Origin: Astropecten irregularis
Taxonomy: Eukaryota > Echinodermata > Asteroidea > Paxillosida > Astropectinidae
Direction: 5' to 3'
NCBI GenBank assembly: GCA_963971285.1
Contig: OZ020249.1
Location: 496,001 to 560,000, forward strand
DNA: 64,000 bases
Made by a program: the position numbers and the translations under genes. The notes beneath the pieces are model-generated. The model had not been told where the DNA came from. It saw only the letters and a list, made by a program, of their open reading frames with translations, and did no database searches. This document shows positions 13,757 through 59,900 of this stretch, in pieces (position 1 is the stretch's first letter; the number at the start of each line of letters is the position of its first letter).

Positions 13757-13956
13757 NNNNNNNNNNNNNNNNNNNNNNNNNNNNNNNNNNNNNNNNNNNN
13801 NNNNNNNNNNNNNNNNNNNNNNNNNNNNNNNNNNNNNNNNNNNNNNNNNNNNNNNNNNNNNNNNNNNNNNNNNNNNNNNNNNNNNNNNNNNNNNNNNNNN
13901 NNNNNNNNNNNNNNNNNNNNNNNNNNNNNNNNNNNNNNNNNNNNNNNNNNNNNNNN
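13757..13956. other. Assembly gap (200 N)
   Basis: This is a run of exactly 200 N bases. The round number suggests a scaffolding gap of unknown real size. Confidence 1.
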
Positions 13957-15234: not shown

Positions 15235-16050
15235 GTAATTTAGTTGCAGCAAAACGAGTACGTAGTCTCGCAAATTGCGTGAATTTAACTATTTATTTAG
15301 GTATATTTATTTATTTATTCATTTATTATCTTATAAACATTAAAAGAATGAAAAATACATTGGCAGGTTGCTGCCCAGCAGGGCCTGACAAAAACTTGAA
15401 AAAGTAAAAAAAAAAAAAAAAAACCAGAAACATGTCATCAAAAGACGTGCCTTCCCAAACACCTGCCAATTATAAATCTTATATTAAATTATGTTATATG
15501 TATATACACAGATTAATTAAAACAAAGCTAAAAAAACAAAAACACACAACAATCATCAGTGTTATTCATAAATTGATTTATTAATTTTAAACATAAAAAG
15601 CACATTTTCATGAGGCATTTGACTTCGTGTATAATTTAATTAATATTTTAATTAAAATTGTATTGTGCCATTTTATTCAAATAATTATGGTATCAACATA
15701 ATAAGACATAATTAATTTCTTCACGGTTTCAGCCACAAGCAAAACATTATTATGTTATGATGACATTAAAAAACATTAATGCAAGGCAAGTAGCCTACAT
15801 GTTGTACACTGCTTCTGCATACTGGATTCTTGTTTGTGTACGTGTTCCCATAGGGACCGAGTTGGTCACGGACCGAGTTGGTTACGGACCGAGTTGGTCA
15901 CGGACCGAGTTGGCCTCGGACCGAGTTGGCCACGGACCGAGTTGGCCACGGACCGAGTTGGCTTCGGACCGAGTTGGTCTCGGACCGAGTTGGTCACGGA
16001 CCGAGTTGACTCGGACCGAGTTGGTTACGGACCGAGTTGACTGGCACCCC
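15235..16050 (+). repeat. Foldback-like element, truncated copy, with 16-bp array
   Basis: The interior (cgagtacgtagtctcgcaaa, then AT-rich sequence, cacggtttcagccacaagc and tgcatactggattcttg) matches 44400-44980. The right end is a tandem array of a 16-base unit (ggaccgagttggtcac) at about 15853-16040, closing with gactggcacccc. The left array is missing. The array reads open in several frames because 3 x 16 = 48; it is not a gene. Confidence 0.75.
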
Positions 16051-22234: not shown

Positions 22235-22622
22235 GGGTTGGATTTCATCAAATGTACTATCAATCGTAGGACTTATGATCTATAGTAGACTAGCGGGCTA
22301 GTCGTTGTAAGTCGCGTTGATCGTCTCTTCTTTCATGCTACTCTCACGAAATCGCTCTACTTTCTCGTGTGAGTCAGGGCTACGGCGAGAGTTCGGCTCT
22401 CGGCGCAGGATCGCTCGAGTGGTCCCGCAACGAGAGAACAAACTCTCGCCGTAGCCATGAGTCTCCCGAGAAAGTAGAGCAATTTCGCGAGAGTAGACGA
22501 TAAACGCGACTTACAACGACTAGCCTACTAGTCTAGATCTTTAGCAGCCCTACGTAGGATATGATGGGTTATTCTTCATAACTCGATTGACGATCCATCA
22601 TAGGACTTCGTGAAATGACCTC
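22235..22622. repeat. Palindromic satellite-related MITE, interrupted
   Basis: The outer parts (gatttcatcaaatgtactatc.., ..gccctacgtaggatatgatg, ..gacttcgtgaaat) belong to the same family as 52963-53102. A 250-base palindromic element interrupts it at 22286-22535. Confidence 0.7.
22286..22535. repeat. Nested palindromic element (tagactagc..gtcta)
   Basis: The arms are near-perfect inverses: agtcgttgtaagtcgcgtt at the left and aacgcgacttacaacgact at the right. Further inner inverse pairs include ctacggcgagagtt / aactctcgccgtag. Confidence 0.8.
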
Positions 22623-22759
22623 TGGTCAATCAACAATATTATGGTCACTCAACACTCGATGGCAATAAATAAACACGAATCAAATTGACTTCTGATTTGT
22701 ACACAGTACTTTTTTAATTCTTATCAATATTTCACAATACTTTCTTATTACAGAGATGT

Positions 22760-26033: not shown

Positions 26034-29000
26034 TCACGATGCACTGTCCATGAGATCGAGCAGGTCGTCGCCTTTACTGGTTTGTGCAGAGGATTCTGGG
26101 ATTGAAAGGTCTCCCATGATCCTGTTGAGTTCGTCGCTCTTTTGAATCTGTAAGAAACGAGGAAAAAACAACCCAAATTCATAATTTGTGTATGTCTTAA
26201 TGTCAATGAGAAAATCAGTTTTAATAGGGCTCTGTGCTCGAGCTATTTATAGAATACGCCCTTTATATCGACAGCTATAGTTATACCTGGATGTTCAGAA
26301 AATTTCACACATTTACGTGTAAGTTAATTGGGCAACGTGCGACTTGTTTGTCCGAACATCTGAATGTGACATCACGAGCATGGAGCCCATTTCTTGGTGT
26401 TCGTATCCATTAGGCCATAGGGTTAATTTTTAGACAATTAATAGCTTGTAAAGTAAACTAAATTTAACTAAATATGTTGATTGTGGTGTCCTCTTCAATA
26501 TTAGCAAGGTTAAATCTGTGGACAGAGGGCAGGATTATGATTTTTGAAGGAAATTATGAGGGAAACGACAGTACGTGCGCCATATTTTACAGACGGAATG
26601 AACATAGTCTGGTTTCTGCCCTTACAGAACGTCGGTGATTGGCTGCTGAAAAAGTTGCCTGGTAAATCCAGATTTCTGATTGGTCGAGAGTATCAGAGAC
26701 CGTCCTTCACTGTCAAGTAATTTGTGACCGTGAAAATGGCGTCACACGACTGATGACAGGCTGTGTTCAAGTTTGCAACAAGCGAGTAAGAAAATTGTAT
26801 TTTTACGATAGAAAATAATGTCAAGATATTTTAAATCTAGGGTTGTCAGGACCCAGGAACATTTGCTTTAAGTAATAAATCTCATTTTGGAACAGTGGAA
26901 GTTATTTAAACCTTGTGGACTAATGGAAACGAATATCACCCGATTCTTTCAATTCCATACATTTTGTAGATAACTGTCTACTGTCAAGAAGATAAAGCCA
27001 AACTATTCACCTTTGAGGCATCAATGTTGATCACTTTGAAGTCGTACATGTCTGGTGGTGGTCTCGAGGCGGCAAATTTCCTAAATTACACAAACAGACG
27101 AACACACAGACCAAAAACCCTTGTTAATTCTTTACAGTTGATCTCGCTTTTCAAACTCGGCCAAAATTTTCAAGTACAGGGATTATGTGTCCTGGGAAGA
27201 TTCGTTAGTTCAGGTCTGGTATAATTAGTAATTGGTGTTATTTGGACACATAATGCTTAATGAGCTGTTTACAAAAGGACACTTAGTGTCAGTAGTTTCC
27301 TGTTATGCTTGGCCTAAGCTCAACGCAAGACAATACTCCTTGATTAAACCCACAGGTCTATGCCCCATTCTTGGATGAACTGAGCTGATGTGGCTAGGTT
27401 TGACTTGTTGCATCTATCCATTAAGGGGTCAAATACTCCCTGATTAAACCCACAGGTTTATGCACTGTTAGACATGATGTGGCTTCGGCTGTGTCTGAAA
27501 CGGGCTTCCAGAGCTACGGCTAGGTCTATTGTCTTGGTGTCTCTGCGTATTTCTAATGGAGCGAAGACCTAGACCTAGCTCTAGACAACAGATTTGGATG
27601 CAGCCTTAGTCAACTAGATGCTCAGACACAGCTGTCCGCTACTCTCTGTGCTTGAAGCTGGTTTGATTTAAGATATATCAAATAGCCAGAATTGTCCTAA
27701 GCCCAATTTCATGGAATACGTTACGACCTAATTTTGGGCTTACGAGCACTGCTACGCGTGAAATCTATTTCATGGAATCCGTAAGCAAGACTTTTGGCGC
27801 TTTAAAAATCGGTTAGTGAACAATTTCTATGCTAACCCTTATTCATTACTGCAAATGCGCTGTCATGTGCATTCTGCAGAAAGTCCTTGCTTAGGGTAGC
27901 GAGAAAGAAAACTCTCTCATGAAAAAAGCTATTATAAACCGTTGCTTAATTTATTTCGGATTCCATGAAATTGGTCCCTGTATTGATTCATTTGATCAGT
28001 TTTCCTTTGTAAATCATTCCTCATTCCTCGATCTGTCGCTTCTTAATCTTGTAACAGACTTACTCTTCCTCCTCATCGGTGTTGAACATGTTGACCCTGA
28101 AGCCTGTCTTCTCCTTCTTGGTCTCGACAGCTCCCATGAGATGAGCTAAGAGATTCAACTCAGCCTTGACCATGGGATTAGGGTTAGCCGTAGCCTGTAG
28201 CAAGACAGAGAGAGGAAAAACCAAGCTGAAAGCCTTCTTAAGAGAAGATGACCTGGGGTCGTTTTTACGATGCCCTACGATGGATCATAACTCGAGTTAC
28301 GAAGGAAAACCTATCGTATCCTACGTACATGTACAAGTAGGGCTGGAATTTATCATAACTCCTACGATTGATAGTTAGTTACGTTGCGTTTGGTGAAATC
28401 GACCCCAGGTAGCCTTGCTGGAATGTTAACATCCCGTTCTTGGATGCCCTGAGCTGATGTGACTAGGTTTATGACTTGTTGTGTCTATCAAGTATGAGGT
28501 AAAATCCTCAGCCATATGGCACTCTGTAGCAAAGTCTTGTTTCTACCAGGGGCCTTTTCCAAACCTCGGCTCCGGCTCAGGCTCAGGCTCAGGTGCGGTC
28601 ATCCATATGCTGATAATATAGATTGTGATTTTTCATTGAAGCTGAAGCTCTGTTTTCTTTTTCAAAATAGTGTATCTACTTCCAAACCATAGCCGAAAGT
28701 CTCTATTTTGATACCAGTTATTTTAGAATGGATTTACAAAATGGAGCCGGAGCCTGAGCCGGAGCCGAGGTTTGGAAAAGAGCCCTGGTAGCCTGAGCAA
28801 AGATATTTGCCTAACATGTCTATTAAGCAAGATCAGCTCAGGTGGTAGAGTGCTGGTAAGACAGTTTATGATTGCTGATATGGCCTCTGACGATACCCTG
28901 AGCAAAGATAATTCACTTTTATACTTACCATACCAGGGTTGCATAAAATTTGCATACACACATGTATCAGACGTTCGTACGTAGTGGCACGAAGTAGAAT

Positions 29001-32000
29001 GGGTGATACTAACCATAGGGCAGAATAGCTCAGATGGTAGAGTACCAGATAGTTAGATATCTTTCGATTAAATATCTTCTGACCAAAGATATGTGACCCA
29101 AGGGAACGAAATGAAGAATGTCCCCCAAAAGTCAAATCTGGGGCATATTCCTCAATTTGTCTACATCAGGCCACATCATTTGTCAATAAGATGGCCCAAT
29201 GAAAAGGTGAGATGGCAGAATATTGCTTTGGCTGTGTCTTCAAGATTTCCGCAAAGAACACAGAAAAAAAAGGTTCAGGCTTTGTCTCAGTCATGCTGAA
29301 AATATAGGTTGTGCTATTACATTGAAACTGATGCTCTGTTTTCTTTTTCAAACCAGAGAATCTACTTCCGAACCGCAGCCAAAAGCCTCTACTTTTTGCT
29401 ACTCGTTATTTCAAAATGGATTCACGAAATTGAGCCGAAATCTAAGCCAGAGCCGAGATTTGAAAAAGGTCCCTGTACTCTCGTTCAATATATAAAATTT
29501 TTGATATACATGTGCCTCCTTACATCTTCTGCCGTTGAGGGGGCAGCACCCTTCTGTGATGGGGAGCTAACTGTCGTGTCAGTCGGCCGAACGGTGCTGT
29601 ACATGTTGGTTCCCAGCTTAACGACCCTGTCTCCCTTCACGTCAAATGAGCCCTCCCGTAACGAGGCCTTGTACTTGCCGCCCGACCCAAACTCAGTCGT
29701 CTTGATGTGCTTGCCTGACTCATCATAGTATCTGAACATCAAAATACAGTCAGATTTTCAGATCAATTCTATCAGAAATCAAGTAGTTAACGCAAAATGA
29801 AATTGTCAAATTTGCGGAAACCCAAAACATTTTGGAGTATATAGGATCACACTTTGGTATTTTGTGGATTACCATCTGATGGACCCAAAGGAAAGTTGAT
29901 GCAGGGTACCAGTACTCAAAAAGGGCAAGATGAAACCAAGACTAAAAGTACAGAAGCATTACTGAGAATGAAAAGCGTGGTCAAAATCTTTAACCTTTAA
30001 AGGTATAATACATGATAGGTAAAGGCAACAGATCAGCACTCACACTTTGTCTGATCCAGCATTTACATGAAATAATAAACCTGTGAAAGTTTTAACTTAA
30101 TCGGACATCTGAGTCATGAAAAAATAGCAAAAACCCAACTCAATTTTTCTTATAAAACATGAATGGTTTTGATCTTACCCCCAGATCAAAACTGTTTTTG
30201 GTCTTTGTTTTACTAATCTCTGGATAAATACGCCATTTCAAGCGAAAATATTTTGATGGTATGTTTCTACCAGCACCATCTTCATACCCTGAAAGTTATA
30301 TGTAAATCTGTGAACATTTCTATTTGGTTTGTTTCCAATCCTGTACTGCACCTTTATGGCAACAAAATTGAAAAAAAAATTCAAACGGAAGAAAAATTAA
30401 AAAAACTGAAGAAACAAGATGCAACAGGTTGAAAAAGTAAAAACCAATACTATCAAATTTAGATGAATAAAAGATGGAATAAATTCACATCTTTGAATGT
30501 TACATGGGAAGTGGTGGTTCACAATCTTGATTATTGCATATATGCACTGTTCTGTATATTAACATGATTATAATGTGAAACTATGGCAACGGTACACACC
30601 TTATTGATCCTGGGATTTCTGCTCCATATGGCACGGGCCCTGACAGGGTCAAGATGAAACGTCCGTTGGAATTCTGTACTTTATCCTTGAGAAAAATGGA
30701 CACCTGCAGAGCAAATACCATGAATCTGACATAATTTACATCTCAAACAATTTGACGTTTTTGCAATCAATTAAAATCATTACACACTGTGGGCCTGCTT
30801 GTTTAACGCACAAAATCATGAGTCCTGCTGATCCAGATCCCATTTTAACGTACCCTGCATAGGACGTGGATCCGCAAATCTGGGATCATGTGCACCAAAC
30901 AAACAGGCCCGATAATAACATCACAAACCTTTGAAAAGCTTATAAATAGAGAACAGCATAGAAAAGAAAATTGCTTCAAAAAATACATCAAATTAATCCA
31001 AAAACAAAAAGAAAAAGACAATATGAAAAATACGCAAATGAAAAACAAAATTAAAAGAATCCTAAATTGAATCTTCTCAACATTACTCAGAAGGCAAATA
31101 TACACAAATTCTGAAATATAAACGTGTTTTGATTGTATGTAAGGTACATTAACAAAGATTGAAGCAAATACAACATTAATAAATGACAACACAATTTAAC
31201 ATGCATATTATATTAGTATGGTTGTACTCAATTGTTTATTGTGAGAATTATTCCAATAAATTCCCGCTCTAATTTGTCTTCCTTTGCTCTATTGATTTTT
31301 CTTTTTGGCCGGAAAGTTTTTTATAATAACCGATCAATGACTAAATGGTTTCTTTATTAACCTATTTTAATCATTTGAACATTGTTAGCCCTAATTTGTA
31401 CCGTGCATTTTGCTGATGTATTGTACATGTACTGTGTGTGTTTTGTTATTAGGAAAATGGCAAACAACCGTGACAACTGTAACTGGCTTTGTCAAAATGA
31501 GTCATGTCTTACAGTGTGTGTATAATGGGCAAGGGAACAAGGACATGTACATGTATCTATAATGCATACCTGTTTTTTTTTTTTATTATAATATTTATAT
31601 TTTACTTGTACATGTACTTAACAATGATGATGTATGCCTTTAAAGGCATTCTTAAGACAATTTTAAATTCTTTAAAAGCTGCTCTCCAACAGTTTTAATG
31701 AGTGTACACCATGCATGCACGCGCACACACCCACCACACGTTTGCATGGTTGCAATGTTTGTCTGAGATCCAGTGTGATGTCACAGCATTTAGCCTCCTA
31801 TTTTTAGCGCAAGTGCGGAGCGCTATTAAAATCCATTCCTTACTCCTTTTCCTACTCCAAGGGAGAGCAAATTTTTGTGAAATTTTGATGACATCTGCTT
31901 CAATGTCCGTTTGTAGGGGACATGTTCATACATTTTTCAAAGATTTGTTGAATAGCAGAATGCATTTAATAGTGCCAAGTCATGACAGTGCAAAGTGTAC

Positions 32001-35000
32001 ATGTCAAGCGGCACTCTCTACAAGACAAAAAAAAATAACAAACCAAATGGAGCGAGCCTTTGAAAACTGAAGTTGACAAATTGACACAGGGGTTGGTTTT
32101 TGTAAATACAATTACACAGTTTCTGTTGACATAACCACCTGTGTGTATAACTTTGGTATACAGTACAGGTAAGCATAGTGGGCCAATATTTGTGGCTACA
32201 TACAGTGGAACGCTACTATAACAAACACTGCTATACAAAACAATTTGGCTATACCGAACATCATCCTTGGCTCCCAATTTGGGACAATTTGTACAATTAT
32301 ACCCAATATCTTGAATGTGGTACTAGTAACAAATGACCTACATGTATAACAACATCTGTGCACCCCGCCATGTTCGTTATAGCGGTGTTCAACTGTACTT
32401 GTGTGTGTGGCTTTTTTGCCAAGCTGCCCAGTGTAATGTACAGAGCACATCACTATAAAATCAAAACAGTGTGGACTGCGATACTATGACTAATTGACTA
32501 TGAAATAAAACAAGATAAAAATGACTGTATTTTTCTTTTAATTTTCTATATTCATTGAAAACACTTTTCTTATCTTTTATTATGGAAGCACATTACCAAC
32601 TATTGGTCTTCAGCTAGGAACAACATCAATTTCTGTAACCCTAATTTTTCTTTTTTAGGATCCAACGAACCACAAATGGCACTGAGTAAAATATCATAGA
32701 CAATGTAGAGATACACGTACTCAGTTTAGATTGACCTCAATACAAAATGGATTCTTAATCAGTAAAGAGGGTTTCATACATAGGTAGGATTGTGATGGTG
32801 TTGGATTAACCGTGAATATAACAATCCGCTTTAGTACAAAACCTAGGCAGAATTGTAAACCATTGATTATCCTTTCTCATCTTGAATTTATAAGTAGCGT
32901 TGGCGGCAGCTAACCTTGACAAGTGCCTTTACAAAAAACCCACCAGTAATATAGGAGCAACCTGCGCTGCAACGCTGTTGCAAATTATATCACGGCGGGT
33001 AGATATTAATTTATTCCGGCGAGGTTGGCCGGCTGTTGCCTTAGCAACCAGTTACCAATCAATAGAGACAAAGCAACAGCATGTTGCCATGGGTATTGTC
33101 TGCCTTGACAACGGTGTGTGGTGGTAGCGTGTAAACAGAAGTATCACGTTTGATGTACATATAGACAAACACTAGTTTTCAAGACACCATGTGTGTACGT
33201 GTGCAAACAAAATTAGGCCAACTTCGTAAGGTCAACATATTCTACATGATAGGACTAATTCTGAAGAAAAATTGACAAAAAAATTATTTACATCATTTGT
33301 TCCCCCCCCCCCCAAAAAAAATGGTCCAGATAATTTTTCCATAGGCCCTTTTCCAATACTCGGCTCAGGCTCCGGCTCAGGCTCCATTTCGATCGTGAAT
33401 CCTTTATAAAATAAAGGTATAAAATTAGAGGCTTTTGGCTGCGGTTTGGAAGTAGATTCTCTGATTTGAAAAGGAAAACAGAGCTTCAACTTCAATGAAA
33501 AACCACAACCTATTGCATATGGATGACAGAGACAGAGACGGAGCCAGAGCCTAAGCCAGAGCCGGTTTGGAAATGGGCCCCTTACAAAGTCAATCACTTT
33601 CAGTCTAATGTTACATATTCATGGAAACCGTCTCTATTGTATCTGTGAAATCTAGCCTAGCTTGGCTTAACAAAATAACAAAGTGGACATCCATACGTAC
33701 CCGTATATGAATGTCTTGGAAAAATTCCAAAAGTGTCATTCTGATGAGCTGAAATTCTCCCATTGACAGTGAACTGTAGGTCTAATAAGAACAATCAATG
33801 GAAACAAACATTTAAAATATTAAGAAGTCCATAAATGCAAACTCTTTTGGGTGAGTGTACAAATGCTGACAAATTAGAATACATAAATCAATAAATAACT
33901 AGACGTTTAAGTGTTCATGGACGAACACAGAGCTGTTTCGACGTCTTTATTTAATAGGCTTTGTTGGTGCTTATGCATTTTCCCAACAATTCATCAAACT
34001 AGAAAATAATGCAACAAAAAATAACTCCCAAAAAACTGGAGTCATGAAAAATGCCAAAAATATATTTTTTATTTTACAAAAAGGTTCATTTCCTTCCCAA
34101 CACGTTTTAGATATAATATTCTCTTCAATAACACTGTGCATCTTCTTCAGAGCATGCATTGTACATGTGTACATGGTTTCTTTAAAATGTTTAATCCCTT
34201 CCAAAACCTGAATTCATTTTGAATACTTTTGGCAAAGGTTCCATTCAATATTCTGTTTGTTTTCTGTTTCAAATCACTGAAAGGTGAACTAAAAAATATT
34301 GACTGGAGTGGGATTCGAACCCAAGTCCCGCAGAATATTGTACAGGTGGTGTCCAAAATTGTCAGACTTCATATTTGTTTTCTGTTTCAAATCATTGAAA
34401 GAAAATTTGACTGGACATGGTGCAGTTGGATTCAAACCTGCGAACCCCTGAATACAGTTCTGGCACTGTGCCAAATGAGCTAGTACAAGACTCTACGTTG
34501 GCGCTGTCTGAAATTGTCAATTATCTTTGCTTTGGTTTTGGTGGTGTCCCTAAATGTCTTTGTTCAGTACCTTAGTTGGTAAAAGCGCCGGTACAGTATT
34601 CCGGACATTGCTGGTTCGAACCCCACTCCAGTCAATTTATTGTTGTTTACTTTTCAAACTCTTACCTTGATCATCAGCTTGATGACGTTTTCGACCTGGT
34701 TGCTAATGGGGACAGAATCATCCACAAATTTCAAGATGGCATCCAGGTGATTCAGTGTAACCAGCAGAATGTCCGACGGACGCAGACAAAGTGAGATTTG
34801 GTATTTCAATGCCATCGTCATCAGGTCATATAGCTGATTGATAAAATCAAAAAGAAAAAGGGGCGAAAAGTTGTGAAACTTGCTTCTGATGCAAAAAATG
34901 ACTGCTAAGCCAGGAAATTCTTGCTAAGCAAAAAAAATGGTTGAGAACAGGGACCAATTTCATAGAGCTGCTTAAGCTCAAAATCTGCTTATAGCATGAA

Positions 35001-38000
35001 AGGTATTTCTTCATCAAACAGGATTACCAACCAAATAAGTGATGTTTACTGCTTTTGACTTGTACAGTATTTGGCCATTGTTTGCTGAGTATAACATTCA
35101 CAAGGAGTTTTGGTTGGCATACTGATTTTATTTACCACAGTTTTTGGTGCTTAAGCAACTTTATGAAATTGCCCCAGGTATTAAGCTGTGTTTGCAGTAA
35201 CCTATCATGCCTATCACAAATCTCTCCAGCAAGCCGAAATGCTCACAATTTGTGACAAGTCTCTAGATCCTACTCTAGAAATTACAAATTTGCACAGTAT
35301 CTATCTCCCGACCAAAATCATTTAATATTCAAGATTATTTGAACATGACGAAGCCCTACGATTGATCGTAACTAGATTTACAAAGGATAACCCATCAGAC
35401 ATGTCAGAGGAGGTCCTGTCACACGTAGGGCTGCAATGCATCTAAAGTCCTACGATTGATCGTAACTAGATTTACAAAGGATAACCCATCAGACATGTCA
35501 GAGGAGGTCCTGTCAGATGTATAGGGCTGCAATGCATCTAAAGCCCTACGATTGATCGTAACTAGATTTACAATGGATAACTCATCAGACATGTCAGAGG
35601 AGGTCTTGTCAGACGTAGGGCTGCAATGCATCTAAAGTCCTACGATTGATCGTAACTAGATTTACAAAGGATAACCCATCAGACATGTCAGAGGAGGTCC
35701 TGTCACACGTAGGGCTGCAATGCATCAAAAGTCCTACGATTGATCGTAACTAGATTTACAAAGGATAACCCATCAGACATGTCAGAGGAGGTCCTGTCAC
35801 ACGTAGGGCTGCAATGCATCAAAAGTCCTACGATTGATCGTAACTAGATTTACAAAGGATAACCCATCAGACATGTCAGAGGAGGTCCTGTCACATGTAG
35901 GGCTGCAATGCATCTAAAGTCCTACGATTGATCGTAACTAGATTTACAAAGGATAACCCATCAGACATGTCAGAGGAGGTCCTGTCACACGTAGGGCTGC
36001 AATGCATCTAAAGTCCTACGATTGATCGTAACTAGATTTACAAAGGATAACCCATCAGACATGTCAGAGGAGGTCCTGTCACACGTAGGGCTGCAATGCA
36101 TCAAAAGTCCTACGATTGATCGTAACTAGATTTACAAAGGATAACCCATCAGACATGTCAGAGGAGGTCCTGTCACATGTAGGGCTGCAATGCATCTAAA
36201 GTCCTATGATTGATCGTAACTAGATTTACAATGGATAACCCATCAGACATGTCAGAGGAGGTCCTGTCACACGTAGGGCTGCAATGCATCAAAAGTCCTA
36301 TAATTGATCGTAACTAGATTTACAAAGGATAACCCATCAGACATGTCAGAGGAGGTCCTGTCACATGTAGGGCTGCAATGCATCTAAAGTCCTACGATTG
36401 ATCGTAACTAGATTTACAAAGGATAACCCATCAGACATGTCAGAGGAGGTCCTGTCACACGTAGGGCTGCAATGCATCTAAAGTCCTACGATTGATCGTA
36501 ACTAGATTTACAAAGGATAACCCATCAGACATGTCAGAGGAGGTCCTGTCACATGTAGGGCTGCAATGCATCTAAAGTCCTACGATTGATCGTAACTAGA
36601 TTTACAAAGGATAACCCATCAGACATGTCAGAGGAGGTCCTGTCACATGTAGGGCTGCAATGCATCTAAAGTCCTACGATTGATCGTAACTAGATTTACA
36701 AAGGATAACCCATCAGACATGTCAGAGGAGGTCCTGTCACATGTAGGGCTGCAATGCATCTAAAGTCCTATGATTGATTGTAACTAGATTTACAAAGGAT
36801 AACCCATCAGACATGTCAGAGGAGGTCCTGTCACACGTAGGGCTGCAATGCATCTAAAGTCCTACGATTGATCGTAACTAGATTTACAAAGGATAACCCA
36901 TCAGACATGTCAGAGGAGGTCCTGTCACACGTAGGGCTGCAATGCATCAAAAGTCCTACGATTGATCGTAACTAGATTTACAAAGGATAACCCATCAGAC
37001 ATGTCAGAGGAGGTCCTGTCACATGTAGGGCTGCAATGCATCTAAAGTCCTATGATTGATCGTAACTAGATTTACAATGGATAACCCATCAGACATGTCA
37101 GAGGAGGTCCTGTCACACGTAGGGCTGCAATGCATCAAAAGTCCTATAATTGATCGTAACTAGATTTACAAAGGATAACCCATCAGACATGTCAGAGGAG
37201 GTCCTGTCACATGTAGGGCTGCAATGCATCTAAAGTCCTACGATTGATCGTAACTAGATTTACAAAGGATAACCCATCAGACATGTCAGAGGAGGTCCTG
37301 TCACACGTAGGGCTGCAATGCATCTAAAGTCCTACGATTGATCGTAACTAGATTTACAAAGGATAACCCATCAGACATGTCAGAGGAGGTCCTGTCACAT
37401 GTAGGGCTGCAATGCATCTAAAGTCCTACGATTGATCGTAACTAGATTTACAAAGGATAACCCATCAGACATGTCAGAGGAGGTCCTGTCACATGTAGGG
37501 CTGCAATGCATCTAAAGTCCTACGATTGATCGTAACTAGATTTACAAAGGATAACCCATCAGACATGTCAGAGGAGGTCCTGTCACATGTAGGGCTGCAA
37601 TGCATCTAAAGTCCTATGATTGATCGTAACTAGATTTACAAAGGATAACCCATCAGACATGTCAGAGGAGGTCTTGTCAGACGTAGGGCTGCAATGCATC
37701 TAAAGTCCTATGATTGATCGTAACTAGATTTACAATGGATAACCCATCAGACATGTCAGAGGAGGTCCTGTCACACGTAGGGCTGCAATGCATCTAAAGT
37801 CCTACGATTGATCGTAACTAGATTTACAAAGGATAACCCATCAGACATGTCAGAGGAGGTCCTGTCACACGTAGGGCTGCAATGCATCAAAAGTCCTACG
37901 ATTGATCGTAACTAGATTTACAATGGATAACCCAACAGACATGTCAGAGGAGGTCCTGTCACACGTAGGGCTGCAATGCATCTAAAGTCCTACGATTGAT

Positions 38001-41000
38001 CTAGGAAGTTACAAAGAGTTTGGTGAAATCGATCCCCAGCTGTAGCATACATGTACATGTAAATTAGCATTAAAACTACATGTACATCCACACTCACACT
38101 TGTTGAAATTACACAGAGTCACGTACATGTATTAAAAGTCAATTATCCCAAAGTTCTTATTAAATGTTTAATAGAACGATTAAAACAAAATTTGTAATAA
38201 TATTTAACAAGCTTATTTAACACTCATGAATATTGATGATTTTGGTCGGGAAATATATAATATGCAAATTAGGCTTGCCCTTCACTGCCTAATTTGCATC
38301 TTATTTAACACTGTTTAAAGCTATAAATTTTAATCACAGATTTTTCATTCACCCAGAAATATACACAAAAGATATACTATATCGCATCATCTTCACTGTA
38401 TTAAACATTAACTATGCAGTGTACATGAAAACCTGCATAGACATTTGCATATTATGTACAGACATCAATGCCACATCATACAATGGATCGGTTGCCATGC
38501 CAACCGGGCAATGAGAAGGTTGACGTTTCCAGTTCGGAGTGAGACAACTGTGTATCAGAAATGAAGTCAGAAGATGGTGTATTGTCTTGTAATAGCGCTC
38601 CGCACTAATGACGTCACAAAATCCCCGGATTTCAGACAAACATTGTCTCACACATGTAGTGTACATGGACGCGCACACCCACACGTTTGCATGGTTGCAA
38701 TGTTTGTCTGAGATCCGGTGCTATTTTTAGCGCAAGTGCGGAGCGCTATTGTACCCTGGCAATCAGAATGAAGTTAGTGCACTGTATAGTGTACCTACAG
38801 TCTGACAGCACATCATGCATAAATCTAAAATGTAGGCCTATAATCATAATTGTACAACAATATAAAATGTTCAATGGGAGACTTTTGAGAACCGGTCTTC
38901 AAGTCAACAGCGCACGCGCATGCACAACAGCGCACGCGCAAAACAACGCGCGCATGCTCACAATTGCGTGCGTGTGCGCTGTTGACTTGAAGACCGGTTC
39001 TCAAAAGTCTCCCATTTGCTCTTTGAATGTTTTTTTTTAATGGGCATACATGCACATGTGAAAATGGAATTCATCATTCATGTGCATTAGAATAGAAACC
39101 TGGCTCTAAACTGCCAGCATTGGCCATTACATTGTACATACGTATGTAGATCCATACATTCAAAGACCATGGCAGAATTAAGTTTATATACTGAACAAGT
39201 GCTGTAGTTGATTAAAATTATTCAATCTTTTGAGGAGGGTCTGGGATTTTGTTTTGGACTGAACAGGGAATTGATCAATTTTGGTAAATGGCAGAGCACG
39301 TCCAATAGCGCTCCGCACTAATGACGTCACACAAGTCAAGTCCCCGGATGTCAGACAAACATTGACTCACGCACGTAGTGTACACCATGCTTGCACGCGC
39401 ACATACCACATGTTTGCATGGTTGCAAATTGCAATGTCATTTGTCTGAGATCCGGTGTGCTATTTTTAGCGCAAGTGCGGAGTGCTATTCCTAAATGCAT
39501 AAAAATACAATGTACATGTATCATTAATTATAAATCTTTTTTTGTTTTCTACTGCAAATCATGAATAATGAAAGATGGTTTTGAGAGGCTCCTTAGGGAT
39601 CTCCTTCTACATGTACTTACACATGTATAGCATAATATTGTGGGCAGCCATGTCAGTCTATCGAAATAATAAAGAAAATTAAGGTAGCACTTAAAGACTA
39701 ACTAGGAGAAAAACTACATACATGTAGTTTTTCTCTTAGTTACAGGTCAGTCTCAAAGTGCAACCTTAATTTTCTTTATTACTTATAGCATATATTGTAT
39801 ATGCACACACAGGTGCAATGTAAATTGATCCACTTCAAAGGCACGGTGTCAACGATAGGCCATAGCATCATTTTAAAAGCTAAACTTGTTGACAATTTTG
39901 TCATGTAAATGATACATGGAATAATTTAATACCATCCTGAATTTTCTTTTTCTTTTTTTTTTGCCACTAAAACCATACAATGTCCCTATTTTTGCAGGAT
40001 TTGAAAACAATTAAGTCACATATTGACTTTGTCAAATTGAACACAAACTTGTATTATTTTTTGTAATCATGAATATCTTTCAAGTCGGTGAAGGGCAAGC
40101 CTAATTTGCATTATGTATTTCAAAATTGAATACATCATGCAATTTAGGCTTACCCTTCACTAACATACAGTAGATGAGCACTGCATACTCAGTACTTGTT
40201 GAGTGCACATGAAAACATCACATGTTGGCTCAGGTGGGATTCGAACCCACGACCTCCTGCTTACTAGTGCACATGCCATACCGCTAGGCCACCGAGCTGG
40301 TGTCAGCGGGGAGAATCAAATACAATATCGCGGCGGGTACCGCAATTAATCATTAATTTATTTTTAGTCCTGAGATAGAATTATGCAAATTAGGCTTGCC
40401 CCTATAACATAATTTGTTTTAACTGACTGACAACGAAAGAATAATGAGGTTATCATTAACTTCTTTTTTTTCTATACATGTATGTAATTAAAGCAAAGCT
40501 TATACAGGAACTTTAAGAATTACTTAATTTCAACATATTTAACATGTTAAAAGGAAATATCATACTTTGGTTTTTGTCAAAGAAATTCAGATTCATGGGC
40601 ATACACTGTACATGCAGTGTAGATACTGTACAGTGTAGGCCTAGAACAATTATCTGTGATATTTCCAGTACCATATGGTGCCCACTTATGTATTAAGAAA
40701 AATGCCCACGGTATTTCAAAATCTTTTCATATAGGATTTTTTATCTTCCGAAGATCAAAAATGTATTTTGGTCAATTTTGGTTAACTCTTTTTTGGATAA
40801 ATACAGCATTTCAGGCAGGAGAATCTTAACCATGTTAACAGTATGTTTCTACCATCACCATCTTTATACCCTGTAAATTATACGTAAATCTGTGAACATT
40901 TCTGTTTTGGTTTCCTACCAAAGTATGATACTACCTTTAAATTTTGCAAATTTAATTGGCAAAAAAATATTTAAATTTCATTTGAACCAATTGCATAATT

Positions 41001-44000
41001 TACAGGTTATTCTTATTCAACATATATGAGAATACTGCGAGTATTAGATAATAATGCATAGGCTATGCACTCAAACAATTTGTTTGGCATAGGCCTAGCT
41101 ACATGTACAAGCAAATAGGCATTACATTGTACATACATGTACATACAGTACCACACACAGATCTTACATGGTACATGGCCAATTAAGTTTGTAATAATCA
41201 GGAGGGTTGTGTACACAACCTGTGTACATGGTGTATGTACACACTACACTGTATATGCTGGTCAGCCTTGTCAAAGTTTCCAAGCCAGTGGGCACAAATA
41301 ACGCTGAAATTAACTTAAATAGCAGTTGCCAGGCAACAGATGATGCCATTAGGATCTGGCTGGATCATTAAGATTATAATATTTTAATCATGGAGGTCCC
41401 TGGATGACATGAATGGTGTGAATCGACTAGAGATGCATTATTCCCATTCCATGTTTTATTTATAAACCTAGAGGCATACTGAAGTTAGAGCTTATTTTAA
41501 CTCCATGTACTGGCATGACTGGTCAGTACCTGTTAGAATATGAAAACAAATTGCAGTTGAAGGAAATTATATTATACATACATGTACATACATGTGTACA
41601 CACAAATTTATACCAAAACGTAGGCCTATTTAAAGAAAATCAAATACAATAATGACTGATTATTTTGTAACTTTTATCATTTGAAATGTTCAAGTAATGA
41701 TTTTTTGGGGGGTATTTAAATATCTATTTACAAACAGTATGTATATCTTTTAATCTTAATCTTAATTTTTATTTTAATTGGTATAATTCATTTGTTATGT
41801 AATTAGCGCCTTTGATCACTTTGCAAGTGGAATTGTCTACGCTCTATAAATAAAAATTATTATTATTATTAATACATGATTGGTAAAGGTCACAGGACAG
41901 GACTCACACTTTGTCTGATCCAGCATAAAATAATACACAAATATGAGCTAAATCGGACATCTGAGTCACGAGAAAATAATGACAATCCTACTTAATTTTT
42001 TTATAAAACTTAAAGAATGGTTTTGATCTTACCCTGAAATCAAAACTGTTTTCGGTCTTTGTTTGACTAATTTCTAGATAAATACACCATTTCACTCAAG
42101 CGGAAATATTTTAACAGTATATTTCTACTCAGCACTATCTTCATATCCTGAAAGAAATACATATTATTTGTGAACATTTCTGTTTAGGTATGTTACATTA
42201 TCAATCCTGTACTGTACCTTTAACATTTTTAAGTACTGAGGTAATAAACTGAGCATTGCAAACTGCTCATCCACCAAAATAATGCCCTAAAATATATCTA
42301 AATGTTAGGGAGGACTGGATTACCGGAGGGCCCAACATTTTGATCCTCTAGAGCAGGATCTTTCTGAAAGGATGAATAAAGTAAGAACATTCAAGTAAAT
42401 ATGTAGGCCCTAAATAGATGAGAGGACTTATTATGATAATTTATTATTATTTCTTAAAGGTAGTATCATACTTTGGTAAGACACCAAAACAGAAATGTTC
42501 ACAGATTTACGTATAACTTTAGGGTATGAAGATGGTGCTGGTAGAAACATAACGTTAAAATGTTTCCACCTGAAATGGTGTATTTATCCAGAAAGTAGTA
42601 AAACAACGACCAAAAATGTTTTTGATCTTTTAAAAGATCAAAAATAAAAGAGAAAAGAAATACCGTTTTTCACTGTTTTCTCAAAAAGTGGGCACCGTAA
42701 GGGACTGAAATTTTCACAGATGATTGTTAGTATTACTGTATCGTCCTTGACATTTTTGCCCAGGAATTTGTATTTCTTTGATAAAAACCAAAGTATGATA
42801 CTACCTTTAAGCCCCATCCCCTGTGTGTTTAATTACATTCTGAATGTGATAGAGTTTGACCGTGACTTTCGTGGTCACCTGATTTAAAAGCGCCCTTCAA
42901 TTGGTCAATGCGCAGAGTTAGATTGACAGTCCAGAAGGGTTTATCGGCCTTGTCGCCAAGGGTGATGATGATGTAAGAATTGAACGGTCTTGATTCTACC
43001 TACCTTGTCCATACTCGCTGTGTTCAGTCTCATGATAGATGCATGGGCCAATCGGTCAAACACGGTACGCATCCCTTTCCTGGAGTATATCTCCTGTGGT
43101 CTGAATAGGTTCTCCATGAAACGCTGGTTGAACATAGTACTGATGATGTCATTCATAACTGCCACGGGAAAGGGAACAATCAGAAAGAAATGGTTACCAT
43201 GGGGATAGATTAAGTAGGGACAGAATTAAAGGTACTTACTGGATTGGTAACATACCAAAACATTAATGTGCACAGATTTACGTATAACTTTCAGGGTATG
43301 AAGATGATGCTCACTACTGGTAGAAACGTAGTAACGTTCCATTAAAATTGTTCTGCCTGAAATGGTGGATTTATCCAGAAATGAGTAAAACAATGACCAA
43401 AAACAGTTTGATCTTGGGGTAAGATCAAAACCATTCTTTACATTTGATAAGGTTTCACAGGTTTATTACCAGTATTTCATGTGCATGTTTGATCAGACAA
43501 AGTGTAGGTGCTGTGACCTTTACCAATCATGTATTAGCCTATACCTTTAAACATTGAGATTATCCTAGGTTCAAACTGTGGTGATCATCTGTTTTCAAAT
43601 TGAAGAAACAATTTACCAGACAATGTTATGTTTCACTTTAAATTTTGGGTCACCAACAATGTATGGCTGGATGGCTCAGTTGGTAGAGCGCCTGTACGAT
43701 ATCAGGAGGTTGCCGGTTCGAATCCCGCTCGAGTCAAATTTTCCTTCTTCACTTTTCAATGACTTTAAATTCAGTAAGTTTCCCTTGTGGTTATTCGATG
43801 ATCACTTTAAATTTAGGCAGAACGGCAAGTAAACAAAGTATTTCATTGACATAATAAAAAGCAAGAAAACAAATTAATACTACAGTTGACCAGCAAATTA
43901 ATACTAAATTATTTTATAATGTAGGGATAATTTCATGTTTATTTGCCAGATAATTCTTGATATGCCCTAAGTACTGAAATATTATTTACATGACACATGA

Positions 44001-52300: not shown

Positions 52301-55300
52301 TGAAGATATCTGCACCTTTGGCCGGTCGGTGTACGTGGCCCTTATAGCCAGAAGATCAAATCAGTTTGCTGGCACCAGATTCCTAAAGAGGGGAGCCAAC
52401 TCTGAGGTAAGCGCTTGTATTTTGTGTCGTCACTGTATTAGACACGGGAACTATGAATCCTTATTTGAAGCATAACGGTGATACAAGTTATGACTGCCAC
52501 AGACTGCTTACAAGAGGCTTTAGAGTAAAAACGGCCTGATGTTTCAATCCTAGTAGGAGCTAACGCGAAGGCCAAATTGGCCTTTGAGACAGCTCCTGCT
52601 AGAATCGGAACCTCCTATGAACTCAGAGCAAAACTGTGGTGAGTGGCTTCTGTTTCCATTCTATCCTCCATGTCCTCGCTTTGCTTCTTTGCTTCTGTAT
52701 GGATATCGATGTCTTGTCTAAAAGATTGAGGTGAATCTGGAGAATTAGCCACAAGCCTGAGTAGCCTTTTCTGCTTAGAAAGTCACTACAACGTGATCTC
52801 AGAATAATAGAATCAGTGGCTCATCATTTGCATCAATGGGGGATGGTGGCCACGAAGATAAGACAGTTCACCACATGGTGAACAGCGCTTCAGTGGAGGT
52901 TTCAGTGGGCTGGAAGGAACAACTTGGAAGGATGCCCTTGCCTGATTGTCTTCCCTGGACTTGGGGTCGATTTCACCAAACTCATCGTAACTTACTATCA
53001 ATCGTAGGACTTAAGATGCACTACAGCCCTACGTAGGATACGATGGGTTATCCTTTGCAACTCGAGTTACAATCAGTCGTTGGGCTTAGTGAAATCGACC
53101 CCTGACCCTTTGAATTGTACTTGATACAAAAGAAGAAGTGGCTCAAAAGTTGTTCTTGAAAGACTTGGAACAATGAAGTTTGAGTTTCGTTTCTTTGTGG
53201 ATAAATTTGAGATATAATTTAAGATTCTGATTTCAAAACAGGGCTCTGTGGCCAACGAAGTGGAGACGGAACAGATTGTTCAAGATGCGTCCATGACGCA
53301 GTTCAAGAGAGGGCGCTATACATCCTTTGTTCAGGTCCGCGGTTCCGTGCCCGGCATGTGGTCACAGGACATCTCCAACATGGTTCCCAAACCACCAATA
53401 ACATGTAAGAACTAGGTTTTAGCGATAACTTGATGTTAATAGTCAAATTTGAAGTATGTCTCTTTTTGTTAGCCCTAAAACCACCCAAACTAAAATGTGA
53501 AATGTTCACAGATTTACGTATAACTTTCAGGGTATGAAGATGGTGGTGGTAGAAACAAACCGTTAAAATATTTCCTCCTGAAATGGTGTATTTATCCAGA
53601 AAGTAGTCAAACAAAAAACGAAAACAGTTTTGATCTCGGGTAAGATCAAAACCATTCTTTATGTTTTATAAGAAAAATTGAGTTGGGTTTTCGCTATTTT
53701 CTCATGACTCAGATGTCCGATTGATTTCAAATTTTCACAGGTTTATTATTTCATGTACATGTTGGATTAGACAAAGTGAGTGCTGGTCTGTGACCTTCAC
53801 CAATTATGTATTATACCTTTAAGCCTATTGAGATATAAGTATACATTTAAAAAAAAACTATATTAATTAAAAAAAAAACTTTATTAGTTTTTTGAGCGTT
53901 GTGTGAAAAGGCCTTCAGTTGCCATACCTGCATCAATACCATTTTCATTATTTTTCCCGTTTGTTGTCTCTAATGAAAATGGAAATGAAAATTATTGAAT
54001 TGAATTGATTGCTTGTATTCTGCAGTGGACATGGCGGATCCTTACGCCTGTCTTGCAGGCGGTCATTTCAATCAGATGCTCGGTCGTTACGGGTCACCGG
54101 TCATCGTCCTCAACTTAGTCAAGGTAATGTAGAATTAATCAGGTCCATTGTCTTATCAGTCTAAAGTCACCCATTTAATACAAATAATAACAAGCATTTA
54201 TAAAACGCCTTTCCAAGAAGATCAAAGCGCTGTACAGACATTATTATCCCCGGTTATCGGGCCATAATTTACATTCCTGAAACCATCTCAACTCCCTGGG
54301 GAGCATACAGACCCGGCTACCATAGGGCACACAGAGGCTAATCAAACCACAAAGCCATCTCTACCCTCACAGGTACCCATTTACACCTGGGTGAAGAGGA
54401 GCAATATGTGATAAAGCATCTTGCCCAAGGGCTCAATCACCACAAGCCGTGGCTGGATTCGAACCTATAATCTGTAGATTGACCACAATATCTTGAGTTT
54501 GACACACCTCTAGGCCACGGCACCCCTCTTAGACTCTGCTCTGTGGATTTCAAGCAAAACCTTGCCCTGTAAGTTGGATGGTTACAAACAGTCGACTAGA
54601 CCACATTACACTGTGGTGCAACTACCAAGGACAAACCAGAGTACAACTGGAGTATAAAGTCCAGAAACCGCAAACAGGATGTCCACTAAACATCCAAATA
54701 ATAACCATCTGCCCAAACTTTGCTCTCAACAGTTTCATAAATATTCTGACTGCCAAACGAACAAAGATAATTGACTGTTAAGGATACCACCAACGTAGGG
54801 CTGGATAGCTCAGTTGGTAGAGCACCTGTATGGTATTCAGGAGGTCGCCGGTTCGAATCCCTCTCCAGTCAATATTTTTTGTTCACTTTTCAATGACTTT
54901 AAATTCAGTCAGTTTCCCTTGTGGTTATTTGATGAAAATATTTATCTAGACAGAAAGCCCAGACTTTGAGTTCACCCCACAAGCTCAGAGGCGTATCTAG
55001 GGAAACAGCGTTTGGGGCAAGTGCTAAAATTGCTTGCCCCAATTCCAACTTGTGATGCCAATGAAAAAAATCAGACAATTTGAAATTGTAATATTTCCAA
55101 TTATATTATATTAGATTTGCAATAACCTCACTGACAGTACAACTACCTGACCTGAAAGGAGCTGGTTAACTCGACGTTCAGGCCACAAGGATCCATGATT
55201 ATGTTTGTGTCTGTCTTGATTATTTGTAGAAACGTGAAAGACGTAAACGGGAAGCCATCTTGAGCGAGGAGCTGATATCTTCCATCAAGTATCTGAATCA

Positions 55301-56998: not shown

Positions 56999-59900
56999 CA
57001 GCTCCGGCTCTGTAATCCATATGCTGAAATTATAGGTTGTGGTTTTTCATTGAAGCCGAAGCTCTGTTTTCTTTTTCAAACCAGAGAATCTACTTCTGAA
57101 CTGCTATGGAATGCCATAGCTATCTTCGGTGGCTTGCTTGGTAATACACCGATCCAGTAGGCCACGCCCCCTGACAAATTGACCAATCACAACGCGTTAT
57201 TTAAGGTCCGACAAATTGCCGCCATTTTGTCCGACAAAATGTTTTAAATTGTGTATTCTTTACTACGCACTTTTCGTTGAGTTTACTTTTGTTTCGTATG
57301 TACAAGGCAATTATATGACAAATCCGAGTTTTATTCTGAACCATGGTAAGTGTTTATACTTACATTATATTTCTGACTCTCGATGCCCTGGCTGAGAGGA
57401 AATGTACATTTTTGGCCTTTTTCTAGACAAAAGTCCAACAGAGATAGGTGCGTTCTGTGGTTGAGAGTATGCGATGCTTCGTGTGTGGCCGATCGTGACA
57501 CGTTGTGTGCGTGCGCGTGTGCGTTGTTGCTTGGACTTTGCTATGGTGGGCGTGGCCTACTGGATCGGTGTATTCCATCATTCATCAAAAAAAAAATCAG
57601 ACAATTTCAACTTTCAATTTGGCAAATTGAATTAAATGATGGAATTACCAAAGCAAACAAGTAAGCCACCGAAGATACGGCATTCCATAGAAATGGATTT
57701 GTAACGGTTTTTCGACTGTTTAAACATGGCGTTGCAAAGACGTATCCGCTATTAAACAGTCATTGCGTACGGTCATCTTGTTTTCATGAATGTAAAAATA
57801 TCAAAATAGAGACTTTGGGCATCTGAGCCAAAAGCAGATACTCTGTAAAATGGAGCTTTTTAACTTCCAAAAGCCCAGGGGTCCATCTCTTTATAGATAT
57901 CTTAGAAGTGAGAACTTGAGCCGAAGCTTAACGGGAAGTTTGGAAAATAGGAGTAAAATCAGTCTGGTTCCCAACCACTGCGTGCTAATCCTGCACAGAA
58001 TACCATGCTTTCCTGGATTTATAAGATTTAGACTGGTAACTTGCCAATATAATTTTCAAATAAGTTTTGAATATTGTGATTTCTTTTTAGCTTTACTGTC
58101 TGGGTGTAGTGGACAGTCCATCGTTGGAGTTTGATACGGACGCAGTGAGGTAAGCCTTTGCTTTATTTGGAATTTGCACCAAATCTCCGGCCCGAAATTC
58201 ATCATCCTCAGATTCATTAGAGTAAATATATAAGGGCTGGTTATGAGGTGAACAGATTGGACTCAACCTTTTTGGAGCAGTGTACTCTTTCTAACATCAG
58301 CACCCAATTTCATGGAATACGTTACTATAAGCAAAAAAATCTTCGCTAACAATAGCAGACTTGTTTTGTTTACTGTTAGCGAGAGTTTGCTTTCTCACTA
58401 CGATAAGCATGAAATTTCTGCAGAATGCATATAAAGTAGCGTGTTAGCAGAAAACTAAAGGTTCAAGTAGCCTAGAAAATCTTTCCAAAACCGCAAGTCT
58501 TGCTACGGATTCCATGAAATAAATTTGAGGCGTAGAAGTGCCCGTAAACACAAAAATAGGCTGTAACAGATTACATGAAATTGGCGGCTTATCAGAAACT
58601 GCTAAATCTTGGCAATCTCAGAACCACATAATGATAATAATAAAGCATTTATAATGCGCACAGTTTCTGGAAAATACCATTCAAAGGCGCAGGTCTGGGA
58701 AGGTCAAAGATGGAAAGCAAGATTGATAAGATGTGTCTGCAGATGGAGTTTGAAGCATGAGAGATCATTATCGTCCCTCAACTCGTCTGGCAAAGAATTC
58801 CAGAGACGCGGTGCTAAGCTGGAGAAAGCCCTGTCGCCATAGGTTGCCAGACGAGTCTTGGGAACAGACAGAATGTGCAAAGATGACGATGACCTCAGAC
58901 CAGGTCTCAGATTGCGATAGTGCAACATGTCCCGGATGTAAAGTGGGGCGAGACCATGGAGGGCTTTGAATGTCAACAGAAGTATTTTGAAATAAATTTT
59001 GTAATTAACCGGAAGCCAATGAAGGTCATTTTGTACTCACAAAAGAGTCATTCACGGTGTCATCGTAAACTGTCCCCGTCAAAGTGATTCTGGTTTCATT
59101 GGTTTGAACCCAGGATGCTGGAGGATCTATATGAGGACATGGGAGATACACTGGCATTGCAGTATGGCGGCTCTCAGCTGGTGCACAGCATCCGAACCTA
59201 TAGGAAGCTATCGCCGTGGACCAGCCACTCACGAGATATCAAGCAGACACTGTCCCGGTACTACAGCAATACATTCTCAGGTATGTTGGGCTTGGTTACC
59301 AGTTCAACATTTTACCTTTAGGTTGACTGAGATGGGGCCAATTTCACGGCCCTGCTTAGCACACAAAATTTGCTAATCATGAAATTTTTGTCTTAATAAA
59401 AACAGGGTTCGATTTCATAAAGCCTTGCGATCGATCGTAACTTGAGTTACGAATGATAACCCATTGTAGGGGACCTATCCCACAAAGGGCTTGCATCAAA
59501 AGTCCTACGATTGATAGTAAGTTACGAAGAGTTTGGTGACCCCAGGATTAACAACCAAATGTCCATATGTTGCGCATCACTTGATCGTTCTTTGGCTGTT
59601 GTTCGATGACTATCAATATCAAATGGAATTTTTAATGGTGGTTTGTTTGATTGAGCAAGGCATTTTGCGATAAGCAATTTTTTTGTGCTTAGCAGTTCCA
59701 TGAAATTTGCCCTAGGTGAGGCCTTCATTACAGCAGTGGTGCATCTCAAAATTGTTCCTCATAAAGACCGCCATACACCTGCAGCACTAACCTAACTCTC
59801 TCCGAAGCATTCCAGCATCCCAACCCCTAAGCCATCGCTTACCACCTGCCGTGCTTAGCAGAAAAACCAATGCTTAGCAAGATTCTCTTCCAAGCGAAAA

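Follow-up and report, generated by a model that had tools for sequence, protein, structure and literature searches.

The window, a 64,000-nucleotide stretch of the Astropecten irregularis genome, contains a tandem array within an intron of a homologue of the Oscp1 gene, which is encoded on the minus strand. The host intron (34834..43003, minus strand, 8170 bp) has GT-AG splice sites and is located between an upstream exon (43004..43158; Pfam E = 6.9e-21) and a downstream exon (34666..34833; Pfam E = 1.7e-14), which were delimited by their boundaries and match positions 21-74 and 72-129 of PF10188. The entire array falls inside this intron, which bears out the position proposed by the first-pass annotation; it is located on a 22.7-Mb contig, with 0.53 Mb between it and one of the contig ends. 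An open reading frame at 29488-29757 of the minus strand, which we took to resemble a further Oscp1 exon, was rejected as such: it had no Pfam match and one weak match in a structure database (E 0.36).

Anatomy of the array

TRF and unit alignment identified 28 complete head-to-tail units (35351..37984, plus strand), in agreement with the previous count of about 28 units of 94 bases. The units start at positions 35351 to 37891, and the last one ends at 37984; 27 of them are 94 bp long and unit 2 has 96 bp. The mean identity among the units is 97.3%. Units at the edges differ more from the consensus than the others (mean 2.6 versus 1.3 differences), a weak trend with a permutation p of 0.016 for an edge width picked after looking. 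A single unit was folded and showed no excess structure on its two strands (z -0.34 and -0.59), and the idea that the unit is a structured element was dropped.

Both ends of the array consist of sequence from a miniature inverted-repeat transposable element (MITE). According to the alignment with MITE copies and the family majority sequence, the left edge with unit 1 (35348..35444, plus strand) is the left arm of the MITE, starting with AAGCCC. MITE sequence is present only from about 35348 inward, and the left terminus is gone. The edge of another dispersed repeat (35287..35337) adjoins the array on this side; at least 46 other pieces of it were found among the scored candidates (best 40 of 761), and the homology of ten fetched copies stops near 35337. 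At the other end, a closing partial unit leads into the right arm and right terminus of the MITE (37985..38037, plus strand), which are 81-90% identical in blastn to three other MITE copies in the window. The terminal sequence TGGTGAAATCGATCCCC, which the first-pass annotation had recognized as retained, is at 38021 and occurs once in the array region.

The nine-unit block

An exact-repeat scan showed that the longest exact repeat within the array is 845 bp at an offset of 846 bp, and the next longest is 251 bp. The two copies of this nine-unit block occupy positions 35934..36778 and 36780..37624 of the plus strand. Eight consecutive units are equal to their counterparts nine units further on, and a run of eight did not occur in any of 20,000 shuffles of the unit order (one shuffle gave seven). 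There are no differences over the eight counterpart unit pairs, as opposed to a mean of 1.9 of 94 bases over 56 pairs within a block, which supports the earlier proposal that the block was doubled after the monomers had diverged. That proposal was based on three markers recurring at 846 bases. The marker CCTATAATTG is located at 36297 and 37143 as claimed, and is absent elsewhere in the array. The recurrence also holds for CCTATGATTG, at 36203 and 37049 rather than 36205 and 37051, and for TGCATCAAAA, at 36097 and 36943 rather than 36095 and 36941; however, the former is present in three other units and the latter in five other places. Several array markers fall in CpG and might arise more than once. 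Most of the markers taken singly are not unique, but the sequence of units along the array is.

Unit 16 (36763..36856, plus strand) spans the join of the two block copies. Mismatches at a lag of 846 bases and a hybrid test, in which the breakpoint can fall at any alignment column between 9 and 65, showed that its left part is like unit 25 and its right part like unit 7, with one private change. The unit is at most one base from this combination, as predicted for an exchange with a register shift of nine units. In the same test, 26 of the 702 ordered pairs drawn from the other units explained unit 16 as well as the predicted pair did; therefore, the hybrid is not decisive. In a simple simulation of duplications and deletions, an identical block of at least eight units was frequent (21-72% of accepted runs) with a maximum exchange span of 10 or 14 units, and rare (0-2%) with a maximum of 3 or 6 units.

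The identity of the 845 bases would also be expected if one nine-unit block had been entered twice in the assembly, which does have gaps, as indicated by a run of 200 Ns at 13757-13956 of the window. We consider such an error unlikely, since the join is in register, the unit there is compatible with a recombinant that carries a private base, and the right flank in which the array ends was found once in the genome.

The block is repeated as a multimer, and its copies are more alike than the units inside it, as they are in the higher-order repeats of satellites in the account of PMC5615363. Those repeats, as treated there, differ from the two block copies described here, which come from one event at one locus. 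A fully developed higher-order repeat has many homogenized block copies, and here there are two. The 846-bp period reflects a single tandem duplication, by which a block of nine units came to exist in two copies, and is at most an incipient higher-order repeat. The first-pass annotation was right about the repeated nine-unit block, but the term "higher-order repeat" was overstated, because there are exactly two block copies and one exchange explains both.

It is very unlikely that the array belongs to a true higher-order-repeat satellite similar to centromeric alpha satellite, of which the window would hold one array. The two near-identical nine-unit copies, composed of units that differ from one another, are what such a satellite would display. 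However, there are just two copies of the block, so that about 18 of the 28 units take part; the array is located within a gene, in an intron; and the centre of the unit had no match elsewhere in the genome. A search for the unit centre with up to three mismatches gave 28 matches in 475.7 Mb, all 28 of them at the array locus, the counts being lower bounds. The unit of a satellite family is abundant or arrayed at several loci, and the array unit is not a genome-wide satellite, because all the matches to its centre lie at the array locus. On this search we rejected the array as one of many satellites, and "satellite" as a family name was too strong.

The MITE family and the junctions between units

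The element from which the array is built is a MITE of about 149 bp, dispersed in many copies and bounded by the terminal inverted repeats GGGGTCGATTTCA...TGAAATCGACCCC. Its length implies that it encodes nothing. The best 40 of 3271 candidates from the genome search were scored and 39 loci were fetched. Four of them (L025, L037, L041 and L057) were dropped with matches of under about 120 bases, and the other 35 gave 36 elements, which are those most like the array. Together with three copies from the window they form an alignment of 39. Each of these window copies has one unit, and blastn and alignment confirmed the positions given previously: 28255..28406 (plus strand), 52963..53102 (minus strand) and 59405..59543 (plus strand). 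The second of them folds into a hairpin (z -7.15), and the third folds weakly (z -1.80). A fourth copy, detected by blastn at 22255..22624 of the minus strand, is split by an imperfect palindrome of about 250 bp and was left out of the family alignment. No consistent target-site duplication was seen by eye in the sequences next to 10 copies whose ends are intact. The right end of the array reads GATCTAGG where GATA stands in 33 of the 39 copies. In public sequence collections, the junction motif had no match among viral_contigs, and the right-terminus motif had one, which shares just about 19-20 bases with the MITE. A 17-base arm motif matched ten stretches of genome_contigs once each; their MITE-like alignments did not exceed 38 bases, and we attribute them to chance.

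The two arms of the MITE bear similar AAGYCCTACGATTGAT-like direct repeats, with a usual spacing of 84 bp in the family and a spacing of 94 bp in the array copy. These repeats are just 12-13 of 16 identical in the three window copies. One base, at position 4, distinguishes the arms: C is present in 37 of 39 left arms and T in 39 of 39 right arms. Within the array, 26 of the 28 units start with AAGTCC followed by the left-arm sequence GTAACT, and units 1 and 3 start with AAGCCC. To judge from the sequence, a right-arm base followed by left-arm sequence is the junction that an exchange between two MITE arm repeats would leave. Since unit 3 also begins with the left-arm base, the history of the junctions is not perfectly clean.

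The first-pass annotation had made the origin inside a MITE depend on the monomer being present in other MITE copies, which is half the case. The centre of the unit is about 10 bp longer than in other MITE copies and was found only in the array copy; the remainder is ordinary MITE core. The longer centre was already there when the array grew and could suggest that the unit came from a source other than the MITE. We regard this as very improbable indeed, since the unit apart from its centre is MITE core from end to end, the junctions run from arm to arm, and the genome search found no free copy of the centre.

Tandem growth is also present in other members of the family. Sixteen other loci matching a broad tandem pattern were sorted by eye from their motif order, and four of them contain tandem units in the same register as the array: two units in C1, three and a partial one in C11, two in C18, and three in C30. 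The locus C22 contains six 40-bp left-arm units in tandem, with a 113-bp period within its array. A short-spacing tandem pattern gave four matches; three of them belong to the C22 array, and the fourth is at C19:8790273. All these counts are lower bounds, as only the best candidates were scored and variable-gap patterns need exact matches. Four MITE loci with two to about four units and one with six indicate that internal tandem growth recurs. At the inner junctions of the four same-register loci, the arm-diagnostic base is C and not T in six of seven cases; therefore, their breakpoints differ from those of the array. The arm-diagnostic bases, the retained right terminus, and the family copies that contain a single unit, two, three or more strongly support the earlier claim that the array originated inside a MITE.

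Proposed origin and significance

Based on the unit anatomy and the family copies, a mechanism of array growth can be proposed. We estimate the probability at roughly 0.87 that the array grew within one MITE by exchange between its arm repeats, followed by unequal exchange and one doubling of nine units. A MITE of about 149 bp would have inserted in, or come to lie in, the intron of the Oscp1 homologue. Mispaired exchange between its arms may have doubled the core and produced two head-to-tail units, with a junction of right arm followed by left arm. More unequal exchanges, either between sister strands or between homologous ones, probably extended the array to about 19 units, the number likely present before the block was doubled, while single-base variants arose and spread. 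A recent exchange nine units out of register would then have doubled the nine-unit block, left the recombinant unit at the join, and brought the array to 28 units. The exchanges were presumably unequal crossing-over, not replication slippage or break repair.

The array probably has no function of its own, and we regard it as very improbable that selection maintains it for a regulatory or structural role in the Oscp1 gene. The exons on either side of its intron are both open and have Pfam matches, which would suit such a role, but one unit folds without excess structure, the array was found at one locus, and nothing ties it to expression.

The array is a further case of the MITE-born tandem arrays known from Xstir and miDNA4. 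Xstir of Xenopus (Hikosaka and Kawahara 2004), as summarized in PMC12628747 and PMC9659126, comprises tandem repeats riding on a MITE. As here, its tandem units perhaps come from the MITE interior, and it occurs side by side as a MITE, as a tandem array and as a composite; the MITE and the organism are different ones. The Xstir model outlined there involves a stem-loop formed by two adjacent elements, whereas the array described here fits an exchange between the two arm repeats within a single element. The same two sources present miDNA4 of Xenopus tropicalis (Scalvenzi and Pollet 2014) as a MITE-driven satellite, which resembles our array in its variable internal unit number and in the microhomology flanking the unit. 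The miDNA4 ends are said there to decay with array growth, as the left end has here. By that account miDNA4 is thought to have captured a pre-existing tandem repeat, whereas the unit described here is MITE core and, in another difference from miDNA4, its long array was found at a single locus. MITEs with tandem repeats inside are also announced by the title of a study on Donax trunculus, a clam (Satovic and Plohl 2013).

No accepted idea is changed by our results, because the birth of arrays inside MITEs is already in print. The array provides a clear local example, at base level, of how a satellite may start, with the repeats that probably exchanged, a recombinant-looking unit, and the start of a block doubling. 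How often tandem arrays start could be counted in one genome, since two, three or six units are present in other MITE copies. We speculate, at somewhat under even odds, that the MITE family acts as a permanent nursery for tandem arrays, in which every copy is prone to internal duplication because of its arm repeats. If so, one genome would display one, two, three, about four and twenty-eight units together with a first higher-order doubling, and independent tandem starts would have occurred in at least two registers. The array in the Oscp1 intron would then be a hypervariable locus at the step from minisatellite to satellite with higher-order structure.

A 28-unit array in an Oscp1 intron

The array consists of 28 head-to-tail units at 35351–37984, twenty-seven being 94 bp long and the other 96 bp, in agreement with the approximately 28 units of 94 bases reported in the first-pass annotation. 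The units have a mean pairwise identity of 97.3%, and their alignment contains 13 variable columns, two of which are the extra bases of unit 2. Two minus-strand exons flank the array, at 43004–43158 and 34666–34833. They match successive stretches of Pfam Oscp1 (positions 21–74, E 6.9e-21, and 72–129, E 1.7e-14) and have GT and AG sites at their boundaries. The predicted intron between them (34834–43003; 8,170 bp) contains the entire array, which bears out the intronic position proposed previously.

At the left edge, MITE sequence starts only near 35348, without the left terminus, and the array adjoins part of another dispersed repeat (35287 to ~35337). Several copies of this dispersed repeat are paired about 250–260 bp apart among the best 40 of 761 candidates. 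The right flank has one match in the genome. An inverted repeat of 48 bp and 85% identity (35287–35334 and 38224–38270) flanks the array, and its left part lies in the dispersed repeat. In the host genome, which has 475.7 Mb in 168 contigs and includes the window at G000:C12:496001–560000, a search with the unit centre, allowing three mismatches, gave 28 matches, and all 28 are in the array. Within the reach of this search, the array is local, is not a genome-wide satellite and is not carried elsewhere.

Other tandem arrays in the window have units of 114 bp (8.2 copies, 50158–51093), 48 bp (5.3 copies, 49483–49735) and 16 bp. The 16-mer arrays are three and separate (15854–16039, 44168–44369 and 44982–45151), two of them built from GGACCGAGTTGGTCAC and one from a similar 16-mer on the opposite strand. 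Three tRNA matches above the Rfam gathering score (40226–40298, 43665–43736 and 54799–54871) may, we speculate, be candidate tRNA-derived SINEs. An open frame at 18677–19093 matches DUF1647 below threshold (E 3.8e-05; 23.9 bits versus a cut-off of 25.7).

Probable origin of the unit within a MITE

The segments at 28255–28406, 52963–53102 and 59405–59543, previously listed as a MITE, are indeed all copies of a single short element whose ends are inverted. A further, fourth copy (22255–22624) is interrupted by a ~250-bp imperfect palindrome (22286–22535; 77% over 264 columns). Folding of two window copies gave one strong hairpin (z −7.15) and another little above background (z −1.80). A 301-base array query had 53 genome matches among the best 40 of 3271 candidates, of which 12 lie in the array; the 41 others cover only 90–117 bases at 73–84% identity. 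The 41 non-array matches represent 39 loci, all of which were fetched; four with short matches were left out, and 36 elements from 35 loci were aligned with three window copies. The family element is ~149 bp long and runs from GGGGTCGATTTCACGAAGCCC... to ...TTTGGTGAAATCGACCCC. One fetched locus (L039:286–588; G000:C14:18156547–18156849, in the host genome) holds two head-to-tail copies separated by a single base.

Both the left and right arms of the MITE contain a direct repeat resembling AAGYCCTACGATTGAT. Its spacing is 84 bp in 26 of 39 copies (range 75–89) and 94 bp in the array, so that an array unit is exactly one arm-repeat period, its extra length residing in a centre ~10 bp longer. The fourth base of the arm repeat is C in the left arms of 37 of the 39 copies and T in the right arms of all 39. 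Unit 1 of the array has C and the closing right arm T, whereas T followed by left-arm sequence occurs in 26 of the 28 units; unit 3 also has C. Nearly all array junctions are thus a right arm running into a left arm, as would be expected from exchange between the two arm repeats. The proposed birth of the array inside a MITE is supported by the junctions. The base after GAT is a less clean marker than the fourth base: right arms carry A there in 33 of 39 copies and C in four, and the right end of the array itself has GATCTAGG.

The 846-bp period

No exact repeat in the array is longer than one of 845 bp at an offset of 846, and eight consecutive units are identical to their counterparts nine units further on. 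Among 20,000 shuffles of unit order, a run of eight never occurred and a run of seven occurred once. The array has two copies of the nine-unit block and no third. Most simply, the period reflects a single nine-unit tandem duplication that occurred after variants had spread among the units, as had been suggested. In a simple simulation, such blocks arose in 21–72% of accepted runs with exchanges of up to ten or fourteen units, and in 0–2% with exchanges of up to three or six. Only two lag-846 differences occur within 35926–36827, both involving one base of unit 16. This unit can be composed of unit 25 on the left and unit 7 on the right, with any breakpoint in columns 9–65 and one private change. 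Of the 702 ordered pairs that the other units form, 26 fit equally closely; unit 16 therefore agrees with one exchange without proving it.

Tandem copies across the MITE family

We searched the genome for two left arms 70–100 bp apart; exact matches were needed, so the counts are lower bounds. At least 42 matches were found: the array accounts for 23, and 19 fall at 16 further loci. A reversed-pattern control had none in the genome. The other loci, a C10 locus among them, were fetched (fifteen as L108–L121 and L123, and C22:5803188 as L084) and sorted by eye from motif order. Four of the 16 form tandems in the array's own register: C1:1522094 (two units, both ends), C30:10186548 (three units, both ends), C11:26158956 (three units and one partial) and C18:18366962 (two units, cut short). 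The diagnostic fourth base is C at six of their seven inner junctions, and these tandem starts therefore look independent of the Oscp1-intron array. C22:5803188 (L084:1441–1672; G000:C22 ~5803128–5803359), with both ends and six ~40-bp units from left terminus and arm, is an independent start in another register. The repeated segment at C21:16472677 includes the left terminus. By eye, six further loci look like MITEs adjacent to or nested in one another, or are unclear; the remaining four carry one unit each, and their right arm fits the pattern by chance.

Array birth from a MITE is a documented, ordinary process. PMC12628747 and PMC9659126 describe Xenopus arrays (Xstir and miDNA4) that derive from internal MITE sequence, list further animals and plants with such arrays, and model their formation through microhomology and decay of element ends. 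Higher-order repeats are defined, and reported in beetles and other animals, in PMC5615363; PMC5844308 describes dispersed repeats in Tribolium introns as mostly single and multimers as apparently unstable. PMC10048060 contributes nothing further here. Among titles and abstract openings that connect tandem or higher-order repeats with MITEs, introns or echinoderms, in a coverage that includes few subscription papers, none showed this exact combination. The first-pass observation on the array holds nearly as stated: the array is an intronic, single-locus MITE product that carries one block duplication. The more useful part of the finding is the copy-number series across the MITE family.
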